From NCBI GenBank assembly GCA_022573285.1, contig JACZUF010000014.1, positions 1-64,000 on the forward strand: 64,000 bases of DNA. Direction: 5' to 3'. The notes under the pieces are model-generated. The model was given only the letters and a program-made list of their open reading frames with translations, was not told where the DNA came from and did not search any database. This document shows positions 20,026 through 29,336 of this stretch, one piece after another. The stretch comes from Chloroflexota bacterium (lineage in GTDB: Bacteria; Chloroflexota; Dehalococcoidia; Lucifugimonadales; UBA3495). Position 1 is the first letter of the stretch; the number at the start of each line of letters is the position of its first letter. The translations under genes and the position numbers were made by a program.

Positions 20026-20063
20026 GCCGTCGTCATCCACCGTCTCATGCTGGAGGTGCGCCT

Positions 20064-20927
20064 GTGGTGAAAGTAACCGAGGGCTGCTTTGAGGCCACGG
20101 GGCGCACGTCCATCATCTGCGACTTCTCGCCTCCCCGCTCCGGGGACCCCGGTGTCGTGGAGCAGGCCCAGATCGACGCCGACTTCATCTCCGTGGCCTA
20201 CAACCCCGGACGGGCCGTCAGGGCCAACTCGGCCATGTTGGCCGCCGCCATCCAGCGGTCCGGCAAGGACACCGTCTTTACCCTGGCCACCAGGGACATG
20301 AACAAGCTGGCGGTCCAGTCCCAATTATTGGGGGCCCAGATGCTGGGTGTGGAGAACGTGGTGGTGGTGCAGGGCGACCCATTCAGCGAGCGGGACCAGT
20401 CCAGGGTTGCTTCGGTCAACGACTACCAACCGACTGGGCTGATCGCAGCCATCGCCCAGATGAACCAGGGTCAGGACTTCAAGGAGAGCCAACTGCGGGC
20501 GGCCACTGATTTTTGTATCGGAGCGGCGGTGGACCTTGGCCGGGGCATCGAAGCAGAGGCCCAATTGGCGGTGCGGAAGGTACAAGCCGGGGCAATGTTC
20601 CTCATCACCCAACCCATCTTCGACGTGGACCAGGTGGCCCGGTACCGGGAGTCCTACGGCTATCACGCCGGGAAGGCCGGGACCCTGCCCGTCTACTTCG
20701 GCCTGCAGATTTTGGAACAGGACGGCGTGCTATTCAGTTCGGTGCCCGACTCGGTGCGCGGCGAATTGGAAGGCGGCCGGTCCGGCATCGACATCGCCCT
20801 CGAGCTTTATCAAAAGTTCCAAGAAACCCAGCTCAACAACATCTACCTAATGCCCCCCATCAAACGCGGCGGCGCCCGAAACTACCAAGCAGCCAAAGAG
20901 TTCCTGGCAAAAGCCGCCAGGATCTAA
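20064..20927 (+). CDS. metF: Methylenetetrahydrofolate reductase-family protein
   Basis: GTG start at 20064 with GGAGGTG upstream; DFSPPRSGDP, ADFISVAYNPG, ENVVVVQGDPF, GAMFLITQPIFD. The track start at 19749 is an out-of-frame extension into the previous gene. Confidence 0.87.
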   Translation: MVKVTEGCFEATGRTSIICDFSPPRSGDPGVVEQAQIDADFISVAYNPGRAVRANSAMLAAAIQRSGKDTVFTLATRDMNKLAVQSQLLGAQMLGVENVVVVQGDPFSERDQSRVASVNDYQPTGLIAAIAQMNQGQDFKESQLRAATDFCIGAAVDLGRGIEAEAQLAVRKVQAGAMFLITQPIFDVDQVARYRESYGYHAGKAGTLPVYFGLQILEQDGVLFSSVPDSVRGELEGGRSGIDIALELYQKFQETQLNNIYLMPPIKRGGARNYQAAKEFLAKAARI

Positions 20928-20954
20928 CAAACGAGACCGTTAGTAAATCTAGCA

Positions 20955-21001
20955 CCTACTTTCAGAAAACGCCGTTAGGGTCACCCGCTCACCCTGGGTT
21001 G
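20955..21001. repeat. Left half of a dispersed intergenic repeat (aligns with 29141-29187)
   Basis: ACCTA-CTTTCAGAAAACGCCGTTAGGGTCACCCGCTCACCCTG vs ACCTATCTTTGAGAAATTGCCGTTAAGGTCGTCCGCTCACCCTG at 29141. Confidence 0.7.
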
Positions 21002-21195
21002 AGCAATCGCCACCAACATATTTCTTGGCTTCGGGCATCGTTATTCAAGGTATTGGCGATTGGCTTGATCGGTTATCGGACCCGTCCTTATGCGATTTAT
21101 GGTGGAGATCGAGTAGCGTATCGATGAACTGGGCTTCGTTCCCTCTCCAAGACCGGGGCGGAGCTTCTATGCCACTTTAGCGAATAGGATAGCAG

Positions 21196-21224
21196 TTGAC
21201 GCGTTCGGGATGCCGTTTTATAGT
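21196..21224 (+). promoter_or_regulatory. Putative promoter TTGACG-N17-TATAGT for the coiled-coil repeat gene
   Basis: TTGACG 21196-21201 and TATAGT 21219-21224, 17-nt spacer, about 150 nt upstream of the start codon. Confidence 0.5.
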
Positions 21225-21374
21225 TTGAGCCATCTCGAGAGTCCTGTGTTCATAAAAATCAGTTTGATCCAGAAATCTCTATGTTATTCGGAATTACAGG
21301 CGGGTTAACGAAGAGACACTTGTTTATATTCTAAATTCTTATCTTGGATTCGTTAGAATTTTAAAGGTGATCAA

Positions 21375-22700
21375 ATGGTAATGCACGTAGCAAACAAAAT
21401 AAAAGAAGCAGCAATGCGGCTTAACAGAGCGAGATTTGGCACCGAGAGTCTAATGGACAGGTTATCTAGGGTCGTCCGAGCTAGGTGGAAGCTTCTGATG
21501 CGATGGCTGGTTGACGAAGCCTATCCTAGGGTGCCGGTGGTGTGGGACAAACTCAAGAGACTAATACCGTATAAGGGAATACTAGAAACTGAGAGGGAGG
21601 AAAGAAGAAAAGCTGAGGAAACCCACGAGAAAGAGATAGGAGACTTGCAGGCCCAGGCCCAACGGGTAAGAGAAGCAGGTTCTCAGGCCGAGGAGACCCA
21701 CAAGAAAGAGATCGGAGACTTGGAGGCCCAGGCGCAAGGTCTCAGAGATGAGGGTGCTCAGGCCGAGGAAACCCACAAGAAAGAGTTAGCTGACTTGCAG
21801 GCCCAGGCGCAAGGACTCAGAGAAGCAGGTTCTCAGGCCGAGGAAACCCACAAAAAAGAGATCGGAGACTTGCAGGCCCAGGCGCAAGGACTCAGAGATG
21901 AGGGTGCTCAAGCCGAGGAAACCCACAAGAAAGAGTTAGCTGACTTGCAGGCCCAGGCGCAAGGACTCAGAGATGAGGGTGCTCAGGCCGAGGAAACCCA
22001 CAAGAAAGAGATAGCTGACTTGCAGGCCCAGGCCCAGGGGCTCCGAGATGAGGGTGCTCAGGCCGAGGAGACCCACAAGAAAGAGATCGGGGACTTGCAG
22101 GCCCAGGCCCAGGGGCTCCGAGATGAGGGTGCTCAAGCCGAGGAGACCCACAAGAAAGAGATCGGAGACTTGCAGGCCCAGGCGCAAGGACTCAGAGAAG
22201 CAGGTTCTCAGGCCGAGGAAACCCACAAGAAAGAGATCGGAGACTTGCAGGCCCAGGCCCAAGGGCTCAGGGAAGCAGGTTCTCAGGCCGAGGAGACCCA
22301 CAAGAAAGAGCTAGCTGACTTGCAGGCCCAGGCGCAAGGTCTCAGAGATGAGGGTGCTCAGGCCGAGGAGACCCACAAGAAAGAGTTAGCTGACTTGCAG
22401 GCCCAGGCGCAAGGGCTCAGAGAAGAAGGCTCTCAAGCCGAGGAGACGCACAAAAAAGAAATCGGCGAATTGCAAGCACAAGCCCAAGGGCTCAGAAGAG
22501 CAGGTTCCCGAGCCGAGAAGACCCACAAAAAGGAGCTAGCTGACTTGCAGGCCCAGGCCCAAGGTCTGAGAGAAGAGGGCGCTCAAGCCGAGGCAAGGTT
22601 TAATTTATTAGAAGAAAGGTATCAATTATTAAGAGAACGTGTTACGGGAGCCCTTCAAGAACCAGCTGGCGAGGTGAACGATGCCGATCTAGCAGCTTAG
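21375..22700 (+). CDS. Long coiled-coil protein with 13 exact-length 25-aa repeats
   Basis: ATG at 21375 preceded by AAAGGTGATCAA; repeated AEETHKKE(IG/LA/IA)DLQAQAQGLR(EAGS/DEGA)Q. Confidence 0.85.
   Translation: MVMHVANKIKEAAMRLNRARFGTESLMDRLSRVVRARWKLLMRWLVDEAYPRVPVVWDKLKRLIPYKGILETEREERRKAEETHEKEIGDLQAQAQRVREAGSQAEETHKKEIGDLEAQAQGLRDEGAQAEETHKKELADLQAQAQGLREAGSQAEETHKKEIGDLQAQAQGLRDEGAQAEETHKKELADLQAQAQGLRDEGAQAEETHKKEIADLQAQAQGLRDEGAQAEETHKKEIGDLQAQAQGLRDEGAQAEETHKKEIGDLQAQAQGLREAGSQAEETHKKEIGDLQAQAQGLREAGSQAEETHKKELADLQAQAQGLRDEGAQAEETHKKELADLQAQAQGLREEGSQAEETHKKEIGELQAQAQGLRRAGSRAEKTHKKELADLQAQAQGLREEGAQAEARFNLLEERYQLLRERVTGALQEPAGEVNDADLAA
21612..22586 (+). repeat. 13 x 75-bp in-frame tandem repeat inside the coiled-coil CDS
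   Basis: Unit 1 starts at GCT 21612; the 14th (degenerate) unit starts at GCC 22587; 975 bp = 13 x 75 with no indels. Confidence 0.95.
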
Positions 22701-22731
22701 TGGTGGATGCCACAGAGATTCTGTCTACGGC

Positions 22732-22941
22732 ATGGTGGTTTTTACCGGCCTACCGACTCTGTGGGGACGCCCAAGGATCACACAGGATCAACGCCGTGAG
22801 TTGGCACGGGAAGTGTTCGATGAAATCCGGCTTCGGAATGGAAAGCTGGTCGCCGTCAAACCTCGACCAAAATACGCCCCTATCTTTGCGTACAGTCTTT
22901 GGAAAGAAAGCCGATATGTAGGTGACGAACGCTCAACCTAA
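22732..22941 (+). pseudogene. Possible C-terminal remnant of a recombinase-family protein
   Basis: RRELAREVFDEIRLRNGKLVAVKPRPKYAPIFAYSL resembles the distal tail of large serine recombinases; no catalytic domain present. Confidence 0.35.
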
Positions 22942-22945
22942 TCCC

Positions 22946-23040
22946 GTCGAAGGGCGCATAGTAGGTGGTTCGACATTCTTCCGCGTAAGGACACCACGAG
23001 CGGAATTAGTAACGCTGATTTTTGCGATCAGATACTAGCA
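22946..23040. repeat. Right half of the dispersed intergenic repeat (aligns with 29187-29310)
   Basis: GTCGAAGGGCGCATAG..GGTGGTTCGAC...CACCACGAGCGGAATTAGTAACGCTGATTTTTGCG..CAGATACTAGC vs the same order at 29187-29310. Confidence 0.85.
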
Positions 23041-23094
23041 GTCTTTTCTTTTGCTGATAGCTGAGTGCCCCGATTCTATCGGGGCTGACCGCTC

Positions 23095-24786
23095 CTACGG
23101 CGCCCAGGGCACGGGCGCCTCACTGTTGAATTGGTCCGTGACCACGTCCACCACCGCAGGCCGGCCCGAGGCGAAGGCCTGCTCCAGCGCGCTCTGGATA
23201 TCGCCCGGCTTCTCGACCCTGATGCCAAAGCAGCCCATGGACTCGGCGACCTTGGCGAGGTCCACGTCGGTGAACTGCCAGAGGACTTCGGGGGTGCCGC
23301 CCTCGATGCCCTGGTAGCCTCTTAAGTCGCCCCGGCGGTCCTGGATCAAGGCGTGGTTGTTGTTGATGACCGTCACCACGGGGATGTTGTTCCGGACGGC
23401 CGTCTCCAACTCGGCGATGTGATACCAGAACCCGCCGTCGCCGCTGAAGCACAGCACCGGCCGGTCGGGCAGGGCGCACTTGGCGCCCATGGCCGCCGAA
23501 AGTCCCCAGCCCAATGAGCCGGCGCAGCGGATGTATCCTTGGCCCGGCTCGTTCAGGTCCACCATCGAGCCGGTCCAGATGCCGGCGTGTCCGGTGTCGG
23601 CCACCAGCATGACGTCGGAAGGCAACCACTTAGTAATTTCGGTGCAGAGCCGCTGGGGGATGATGGGCACGGCGTCCGAGTTGGCCAAGGGGGCAACATC
23701 TTCCCGCCATTCCCGCACCAACTCCTGGGCCCGGGACACCCACCCGGTGCGGGCGCCGGCGGGCTCCGACGCCTCGATCAGACGGCGGGTGCTGGCCTTG
23801 GCGTCGCCCTGTAGCGCCACCTGTGCCGGGTAGGTGCGGCCCAGTTCCGACGGGTCGATGTCGATCTGGATCACCGGTGTTCCCATGGCTGGGACACGCC
23901 ACTCGTTGGTCACCTGACTTCCGGTGTGGCTGCCGATGTACAGCACCAGGTCGGCTTCGTGGACCACCCGGTTGGCGCACCAACGGGAGTACGAGCCCAC
24001 CACGCCCACGGCCAGGGGGTGATTGTCGGGAATGGTACCCTTGGCGTTCAGTGAGGTGGCCACTGGGATGTTCAGCATCTCCGCCAGTTCGACCACCTCT
24101 CTCTGGGCGCCAGAGGTGGTGACGCCGCCGCCGGCCACGATGACCGGGCGCTGGGCGTTGGCCAGTACTTGGGCCGCCTCCCGGACCCTCTCGGGCTCCG
24201 GTTCGGGCCGGAAGGCCGGCCGCCGGGTGAACGTCTCCTCCAGAATCACCTCCAGGTCGGCTTCTCCCTCCTCCACCACATTGCCGCTCATGCCCTCGAG
24301 GTCCAGGTGCACCGGGGCCGGGGCGCCGGTGGTCGCCTCGCGGAAGGCCTGCCGCAACAGGCCCGGGAGCTCGTTTACGGAGTCAACAACAGCGCTGAAC
24401 TTGGTGACCGAGGCGAAGGGTTTGGAATGTTCGATCTCCTGGTAGGCGTTCCGGTTCTGCTGCAGATTAGACTTGTGGCCGGTCAGGGCCACCACGGGGG
24501 AGAGGCCCAAGAAAGCGTCTTGCAGACCGGCGGCCAGGTTCGCCGCGCCCACCGACTGGGCCATGCAGACCCCTGGGCGGTTGGAAGCCCTGGCATAGCC
24601 ATCAGCCATGTACGCCGCTGCCTTCTCGCCGTGGGTCACAATGCGCTTGATGCCCAACAGGTCCATCTCGGCCAGGGCTTTACGGAGCACGGCGGGAGCG
24701 ATGAACACGTGGGTAACGCCGTAGGCTTTCAGTGTGTCGGCCAGGAATTTGCCCCCGCTCATCTTAGGCATGTCTTTCCCTCCCAA
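23095..24786 (-). CDS. Thiamine-pyrophosphate-dependent enzyme (acetolactate synthase / benzoylformate decarboxylase-like)
   Basis: HGEKAAAYMADGYARASNRPGVCMAQSVGAANLAAGLQDAF; GDGGFWYHIAELETAVRNNIPVVTVINNNHA TPP motif. Confidence 0.9.
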   Translation of the reverse strand: MGGKDMPKMSGGKFLADTLKAYGVTHVFIAPAVLRKALAEMDLLGIKRIVTHGEKAAAYMADGYARASNRPGVCMAQSVGAANLAAGLQDAFLGLSPVVALTGHKSNLQQNRNAYQEIEHSKPFASVTKFSAVVDSVNELPGLLRQAFREATTGAPAPVHLDLEGMSGNVVEEGEADLEVILEETFTRRPAFRPEPEPERVREAAQVLANAQRPVIVAGGGVTTSGAQREVVELAEMLNIPVATSLNAKGTIPDNHPLAVGVVGSYSRWCANRVVHEADLVLYIGSHTGSQVTNEWRVPAMGTPVIQIDIDPSELGRTYPAQVALQGDAKASTRRLIEASEPAGARTGWVSRAQELVREWREDVAPLANSDAVPIIPQRLCTEITKWLPSDVMLVADTGHAGIWTGSMVDLNEPGQGYIRCAGSLGWGLSAAMGAKCALPDRPVLCFSGDGGFWYHIAELETAVRNNIPVVTVINNNHALIQDRRGDLRGYQGIEGGTPEVLWQFTDVDLAKVAESMGCFGIRVEKPGDIQSALEQAFASGRPAVVDVVTDQFNSEAPVPWAP

Positions 24787-29068: not shown

Positions 29069-29140
29069 CTGAAGGTTCGCTGGAGATTCGGTTCAGGGAG
29101 GCCGCACCAAAGGACGGCCCCCATTTGGTTCTCTATTACC

Positions 29141-29310
29141 TATCTTTGAGAAATTGCCGTTAAGGTCGTCCGCTCACCCTGAGCTTGTCGAAGGGCGCAT
29201 AGCGGGTGGTTCGACAAGTCTTCCCGATGCATCGGGAAGACTCGCGACCCCCGGTCGGAGCTCACCACAAGCGGAATTAATAACGCTGATTTTTGCGGCC
29301 AGGTACTAGC
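29141..29310. repeat. Uninterrupted copy of dispersed intergenic repeat (CCTGAGCTTGTCGAAGG family) containing a CCCGATGCATCGGG palindrome
   Basis: Shares left half with 20955-21001, right half with 22946-23040, central part with 34029-34095. Confidence 0.8.
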
Positions 29311-29336
29311 TGGTTGGAGCGGGGAATCAAGCAGCT

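Follow-up and report, generated by a model that had tools for sequence, protein, structure and literature searches.

The window (64,000 nucleotides) is part of contig C70 in a draft genome of 3.17 Mb; a 1,944-bp element lies in it between a metF-like gene and a thiamine-diphosphate (TPP) enzyme gene. Very likely, this element is a non-autonomous member of an integrative family moved by a large serine recombinase (LSR), with an attachment site (attP) proposed to lie within the LSR gene. Members of the family have common boundaries, a REP-type target, inverted-repeat ends and varied cargo, and the window copy contains no recombinase of its own, only a C-terminal remnant that is homologous to the C-terminus of full-length LSRs. 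The features of the locus are collected in Table 1.

Table 1. Coordinates of the features at the metF–TPP enzyme locus, numbered from the first nucleotide of the window.
Feature	Position	Strand	Evidence
metF-like gene (methylenetetrahydrofolate reductase), left neighbour	20034..20927	+	Pfam MTHFR, E=1.8e-15
metF intrinsic terminator, left arm, cut at TA (20950-20951)	20933..20951	+	uninterrupted in sister genomes
MITE-like repeat, left segment, ending in the REP left half CCGCTCACCC and then T	20952..20995	+	
Conserved left end, 31-codon frame WVEQSPPTYxLASGIVV..., proposed recombinase C-terminal piece	20995..21087	+	synonymous ratio 1.73
Inserted element, 1,944 bp	20996..22939	+	left boundary common to 60 copies; cross-genus alignments begin exactly there
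Degraded similarity to tmRNA 3' end, inner edge of conserved left end	21100..21126	-	window score 10, weak
Cargo gene, 441-aa coiled-coil protein	21375..22700	+	
Tandem array within the cargo gene, 13 units of 75 bp (25 codons)	21615..22593	+	TRF, 86% matches
LSR C-terminal remnant, frame ending in TAA at the crossover (22939-22941)	22732..22941	+	78% identity to family tail, 45 residues
Right attP half-site, inverted-repeat partner of 20997-21024	22911..22938	+	21/28 identical
REP right half and right MITE segment, TA next at 23036-23037	22940..23035	+	
metF terminator, right arm GCAGTCTTTTC	23038-23048		rejoined arms fold
TPP enzyme gene, right neighbour, convergent with metF	23095..24786	-	Pfam TPP_enzyme N, M and C domains
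Uninterrupted MITE-like repeat, reference copy, TA on both sides	29136..29306	+	

Nested insertions in the metF terminator

Genomes of the same genus have a short metF–TPP interval that holds an uninterrupted intrinsic terminator; in L036 this reads GACCGCCAGATTACCTAGCGGTCTTTTT. The arms of this terminator are 2.1 kb apart in the window, each adjoining a TA, and when rejoined they fold as a terminator (-9.5 kcal/mol, z -3.6), indicating that the unit inserted at metF comprised the whole repeat together with the cargo. Relative to the sister genomes, the insertion is thus a MITE-like element plus cargo (20952-23035) with TA on both sides. The MITE-like element has imperfect terminal inverted repeats, G(T/C)ACCTA..., and several copies in the genome, not every one of which shows a clear TA duplication. 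It includes the REP CCGCTCACCCTGAGCTTGTCGAAGGG, and the 1,944-bp segment sits exactly within this REP, with its left boundary between T20995 and G20996. As read from these nested junctions, the MITE entered a TA of the metF terminator first, and the 1,944-bp element later entered the REP within the MITE. A MITE without cargo at the metF locus was not found in any relative; the cargo-free counterpart is seen as other MITE copies elsewhere in the same genome. In the nearest relative (G005:C29 near 22252, L032), the metF gene beside the TPP enzyme gene seems, as judged by eye, to be broken, and a leucine-rich-repeat-like gene is close.

The initial annotation had described a dispersed repeat split by cargo, and BLAST of 29141-29315 against the own genome recovered both halves where they had been placed (20959-20996 and 22930-23039), along with many further copies. 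The uninterrupted copy assigned to about 29141-29310 is present, its full extent being 29136-29306 (~171 bp), and its terminal inverted repeats are imperfect. With up to three mismatches allowed, the window contains 10 copies of the core CTGAGCTTGTCGAAG (1.5 expected), and the right-arm pattern GGAATTARTAACGCTGATTTTTGCG occurs twice (0 expected). The breakpoints given as ~21001/22945 have to be moved to T20995/G20996 and T22939/A22940; CGCTCAACC, immediately left of the right breakpoint, is the element's own attP arm. A crossover dinucleotide, which the annotation had suggested seeking at about the former positions, was deduced to be TG, at 20995-20996. At the right boundary of the window element it reads TA (22939-22940), a mutated TG. 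The 'recombinase-like tail' proved to be the C-terminus of an LSR, and the 'promoter-like sequence' ascribed to the cargo is at chance level (one found, 0.8 expected).

A family of elements with a REP-type target

Across the genus and family, 60 conserved left ends were found, and both ends are present in eight elements; for most of the left ends, no right end was present within the examined DNA. Matches between the window segment and its relatives are almost solely at the two ends, and several contigs carry both at variable spacing. The aligned left ends begin abruptly at GGGTTGAGCAATCGCC, and the sequence before this point differs, yet corresponds to the REP left half. The right ends read ..GGTGxCGxxCGCTCAACC up to the crossover and TGAGC..GTCGAA beyond it, i.e., C-terminal codons of the recombinase followed by the REP right half. 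In complete elements, the joined flanks restore a REP-type repeat. The same left boundary in 60 copies and the restored repeat support the earlier proposal that a mobile element was inserted into the centre of the repeat core.

The target qualifies as REP/BIME, being a short palindromic intergenic repeat of many copies that can form hairpins in pairs: 68 cores are found in the genome versus 0 in a reversed control, and folding of the paired form gives -30.9 kcal/mol (z -4.2). The left flanks of 57 copies have the consensus CCG(C/T)TC(A/G)TCC followed by the crossover T, which is the REP left half; 29 of the 57 flanks fit a strict REP-left-half pattern (background 3.4e-4 per position), and 53 have T at -1, with G usually the next base. 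TG is present in attB, attL, attR and the deduced attP, and we infer that it is the crossover dinucleotide. The targets at L108, L225 and L226 are a related repeat, TGAGCGAAGCGAAGG or similar; some other members adjoin other repeat types or no recognisable REP, and the distant relatives L092, L130 and L142 adjoin sequences that appear tRNA-like by eye. The locus of the L106 element is short and empty in four relatives, where the REP is missing too. The left flanks at L105 626, L189 1559 and L193 409 resemble the last 20-35 bp of a right end of the family, which suggests that insertion at these three loci occurred in tandem, into an older element.

Two pairs of copies from different genera are nearly identical from the crossover onwards: L116 and L187, whose upstream flanks are unrelated, share 96% identity in two blocks spanning ~5 kb from the crossover (position 0), and L122 and L185 share 99.8% identity from -2. 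Copies so similar that begin at the crossover suggest recent transfer between genera. Those relatives of the element that have names are MAGs of Chloroflexi and Dehalococcoidia; one relative is filed as Euryarchaeota and one as Planctomycetaceae; since the genomes are fragmented MAGs, foreign contigs are possible. No relatives were found in the phage, plasmid and viral-contig collections.

Recombinase gene and attachment site

Pfam assigns a Resolvase and a Recombinase domain to LSR proteins of the family (from G013:C73, L185 and L226). An intact full-length LSR is encoded in L226 and L231, and full-length LSR relatives match, by sequence, a conjugative-transposon recombinase and the SP-beta recombinase YokA, both in the PDB. 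The two ends of one element are mutual inverted repeats, as expected of an LSR attP, with 14-21 of 28 positions identical in the seven elements compared (21 in the window). Shuffles of the consensus half-site gave a mean of 6.5 and a largest value of 16, and two of the seven elements reach only 14, or 16, which equals this maximum, so half-site decay is likely. The deduced attP is a near-palindrome, ..GCTCAACC-TG-GGTTGAGC.., with the junction CGCTCAACCTGGGTTGAGC. The flanks fit precise recombination at a conserved attB with a common central dinucleotide.

In nine right ends (L105, L107, L108, L126, L225, L226, L229, L230 and L231), the LSR frame ends in a TGA whose first two bases are the crossover TG and whose remainder comes from the target. 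The window has TAA at this junction, and the LSR frame at L106, L192 and L218 reads through or stops early. At the left end, the continuation of the LSR frame is open over 31 codons and ends at a common stop, WVEQSPPTYVLASGIVVLAVGDWLNRLSNAA, which is lost in the window copy, and both the frame and its length are kept in two subfamilies, SPPTY and TPPAS; the consensus peptide ends SNAA. Over 36 copies, the observed/expected synonymous ratio is 1.73 in the LSR-continuing frame versus 0.65-1.36 in the other five, with pairwise substitution counts that are non-independent. Antisense coding of the left end was considered, since attP is symmetrical, and was set aside because the antisense frame ranked second (1.36). 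As judged from codon patterns, the left-end frame shows the signature of purifying selection in phase with the LSR, which points to one gene across attP. The attP would then lie within the LSR gene near its 3' end, and ~31 codons would be split off on integration. Neither an unsplit LSR gene nor a circular form was present among the matches listed in the genome collections, and none was found in phages, plasmids and viral contigs; MAG assemblies favour integrated forms. Contig G063:C8, examined as a possible closed circle across attP, was rejected because no LSR C-terminus is encoded at its start.

Taken as a mechanism, a circular form would recombine its attP with the central TG of a dispersed REP, ..CTCAYCC-TG-AGCYTGTCGAAGG.., which would serve as a multi-copy attB. 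The predicted products are CCT joined to GGGTTGAGC on the left and CTCAACC joined to TGAGC..GAAGG on the right. The integrated LSR gene would lose its last ~31 codons, retained at the opposite end of the element, and the TGA of the target would usually become its new stop. The window element, having entered the REP of a MITE that itself had gone into the metF terminator, would have kept both ends and the coiled-coil gene and lost most of the recombinase, so that its movement would require a recombinase in trans. The circular intermediate, the catalysis and translation across attP are all deduced from sequence.

Alternatively, the MITE could be the mobile unit, in which case the 2.1-kb locus would be a longer cargo-carrying transposon and the short copies its deletion derivatives. 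Terminal repeats and TA flanks do enclose the entire unit at the window locus, and in two other MITE copies, L112 and L113, family left ends occupy this position as well. Most family members, however, have the same ends without MITE repeats around them, so the inner element moves independently, and no transposase for the MITE was found; we regard this explanation as very unlikely. Capture of the cargo by homologous recombination or deletion between REPs, or independent placement of two truncated repeats, is a further option: the 68 REP cores make such events conceivable, and the right half contains a CGCTCAACCT that partly duplicates the core, but this 'duplicated' core is accounted for as an attP arm, and the identical nucleotide boundary recurs in 60 copies, also outside the MITE and across genera, which makes the idea highly improbable. 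IS110-family elements such as IS621 target REP sequences, and a REP-targeting transposase of this type could be invoked for the segment; yet the element end encodes a serine-recombinase C-terminus rather than a DEDD transposase, and relatives carry full LSR genes at that end, so that we give this option next to no credence.

A closer competitor accepts that an LSR moved the element and holds that attP is merely adjacent to the LSR gene, the left-end frame being a by-product of att-site DNA and the crossover TGA a coincidence. As an attP arm, the initial ~28 bp at this end would be conserved regardless of coding, no unsplit gene appears among the matches listed, and one antisense frame also has some synonymous excess. 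On the other hand, conservation extends ~90 bp past the attP arm, beyond the common stop codon, it is precisely the continuation of the LSR frame that has the ratio of 1.73, and the SPPTY and TPPAS subfamilies preserve frame and length. We consider an adjacent attP unlikely on this basis, while still a serious alternative, and favour an attP inside the LSR gene. The fuller proposal, that this is a bacterial LSR with attP in its own gene, that the free and integrated elements make different enzymes and that the ends also mobilise cassettes in trans, is in our judgement evenly poised between right and wrong. An LSR split at attP could possibly provide a built-in control of directionality.

In L110, L121, L195 and the G010:C59 locus (L094), another LSR gene lies near the left end on the opposite strand, running towards it, and some elements may have two recombinases. 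The left end contains no whole tRNA, tmRNA or Rfam genes. Its inner edge resembles the tmRNA 3' end of the own genome in 27 of 58 copies versus 2 of 474 control windows, in either orientation; the similarity lies at ~100-135 bp from the crossover in L119, L121, L202, L203 and L207, and runs into the tmRNA terminator in L207 and L119. Either a second attachment site or a remnant from an ancestor with tRNA/tmRNA targets could explain this edge.

Relation to known systems and cargo

Integrative elements with LSRs, including multi-targeting ones, are already known (PMC10083194), and the present family resembles them in having a Resolvase plus Recombinase LSR at one end, inverted attP half-sites, a central dinucleotide and many targets. 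It differs from them in its REP-type target, in the many recombinase-free copies with one or two cargo genes and in its apparently intragenic attP, and DUF4368, common in multi-targeting LSRs, is absent from the Pfam matches here (PMC10083194). PLE 1 of Vibrio cholerae is an LSR-driven anti-phage island whose chromosomal site is a copy of the dispersed multi-copy repeat VCR (PMC6002521). It shares with our family an LSR with a dispersed-repeat site, and is distinguished from it by the small cassettes, the REP target and the apparently split recombinase gene found here (PMC6002521). The mechanism class, whether a multi-target LSR or an LSR using a dispersed repeat, is therefore not new. Integron cassettes are likewise small and mobile, each with one or two cargo genes plus a recombination site, but no IntI, attC or array was seen in our case, where a serine recombinase and a REP target are found.

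The proposed split of the gene has parallels among tyrosine integrases. The suicidal SSV-type integrases of archaea have the att site within the gene, with int(N) and int(C) at opposite ends, and self-disrupting recombinases have been called exclusively archaeal in a review (PMC8371274). The proposed att site in the recombinase gene, with pieces at opposite ends, is similar; unlike the SSV type, the enzyme here is a bacterial serine recombinase (Pfam Resolvase plus Recombinase) and only the last ~31 residues are separated (PMC8371274), and as the loss is limited to these terminal residues the integrated enzyme may stay active. In the integration-dependent immunity of mycobacteriophage BPs, attP lies in the repressor gene, the junction is TGA and a C-terminal tail ending in AA is removed at integration (PMC9262239). 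The family described here would share the attP in a coding gene, the TGA junction and the removal of a tail ending in AA, and would differ from BPs, which has a tyrosine integrase, in that attP lies in the recombinase gene rather than the repressor gene (PMC9262239); the SNAA that ends the left-end peptide is suggestive of a degradation tag at most. A serine integrase with attP within its own gene was not found in the open-access literature searched. If true, suicidal integrases and integration-dependent switches would have a bacterial counterpart built on a serine recombinase, and an LSR gene spanning attP would let integration switch the enzyme form, which bears on the choice of direction by serine integrases without a known directionality factor. 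The attP and attB sequences given here are exact and testable, and recombinases with a REP-like multi-copy attB could possibly be used as tools.

With one mobile family and its cargo, a class of orphan genes and split repeats in uncultured Chloroflexota genomes is explained. Apart from the 1.9-kb window element with its coiled-coil gene, the cargo comprises SLFN/AlbA_2 (L105, 1.5 kb), zinc fingers plus B12/radical SAM (L106, 3.3 kb), DUF2330 plus a DEAD helicase (L107, 3.6 kb), a 1,462-aa protein with fibronectin-like repeats, seen by eye (L108, 4.9 kb), and a zinc finger (L124, 1.0 kb, with a weak right end, E = 3e-4). L192 (0.7 kb) has both ends present, and L218 (0.8 kb) contains a recombinase remnant only. 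In L185, the left end is followed 11 kb on by an LSR gene in the expected order that runs off the contig, with transporter and aminotransferase genes in between, so this is a likely autonomous member. The coiled-coil cargo protein has no relative in 39 related genomes, and its N-terminus gave only noise-level matches in 392 other genomes of the class; the best distant match was rejected as a relative because it falls in an amidohydrolase-like frame. From the similarity of its copies (13, at 86% identity), the 25-codon repeat of this protein appears to be recently expanded. Different left ends in L106, L117, L118, L123 and L124, from three genomes, are followed by one and the same zinc-finger cargo region (84-93% DNA identity), indicating that cargo is shared among elements.
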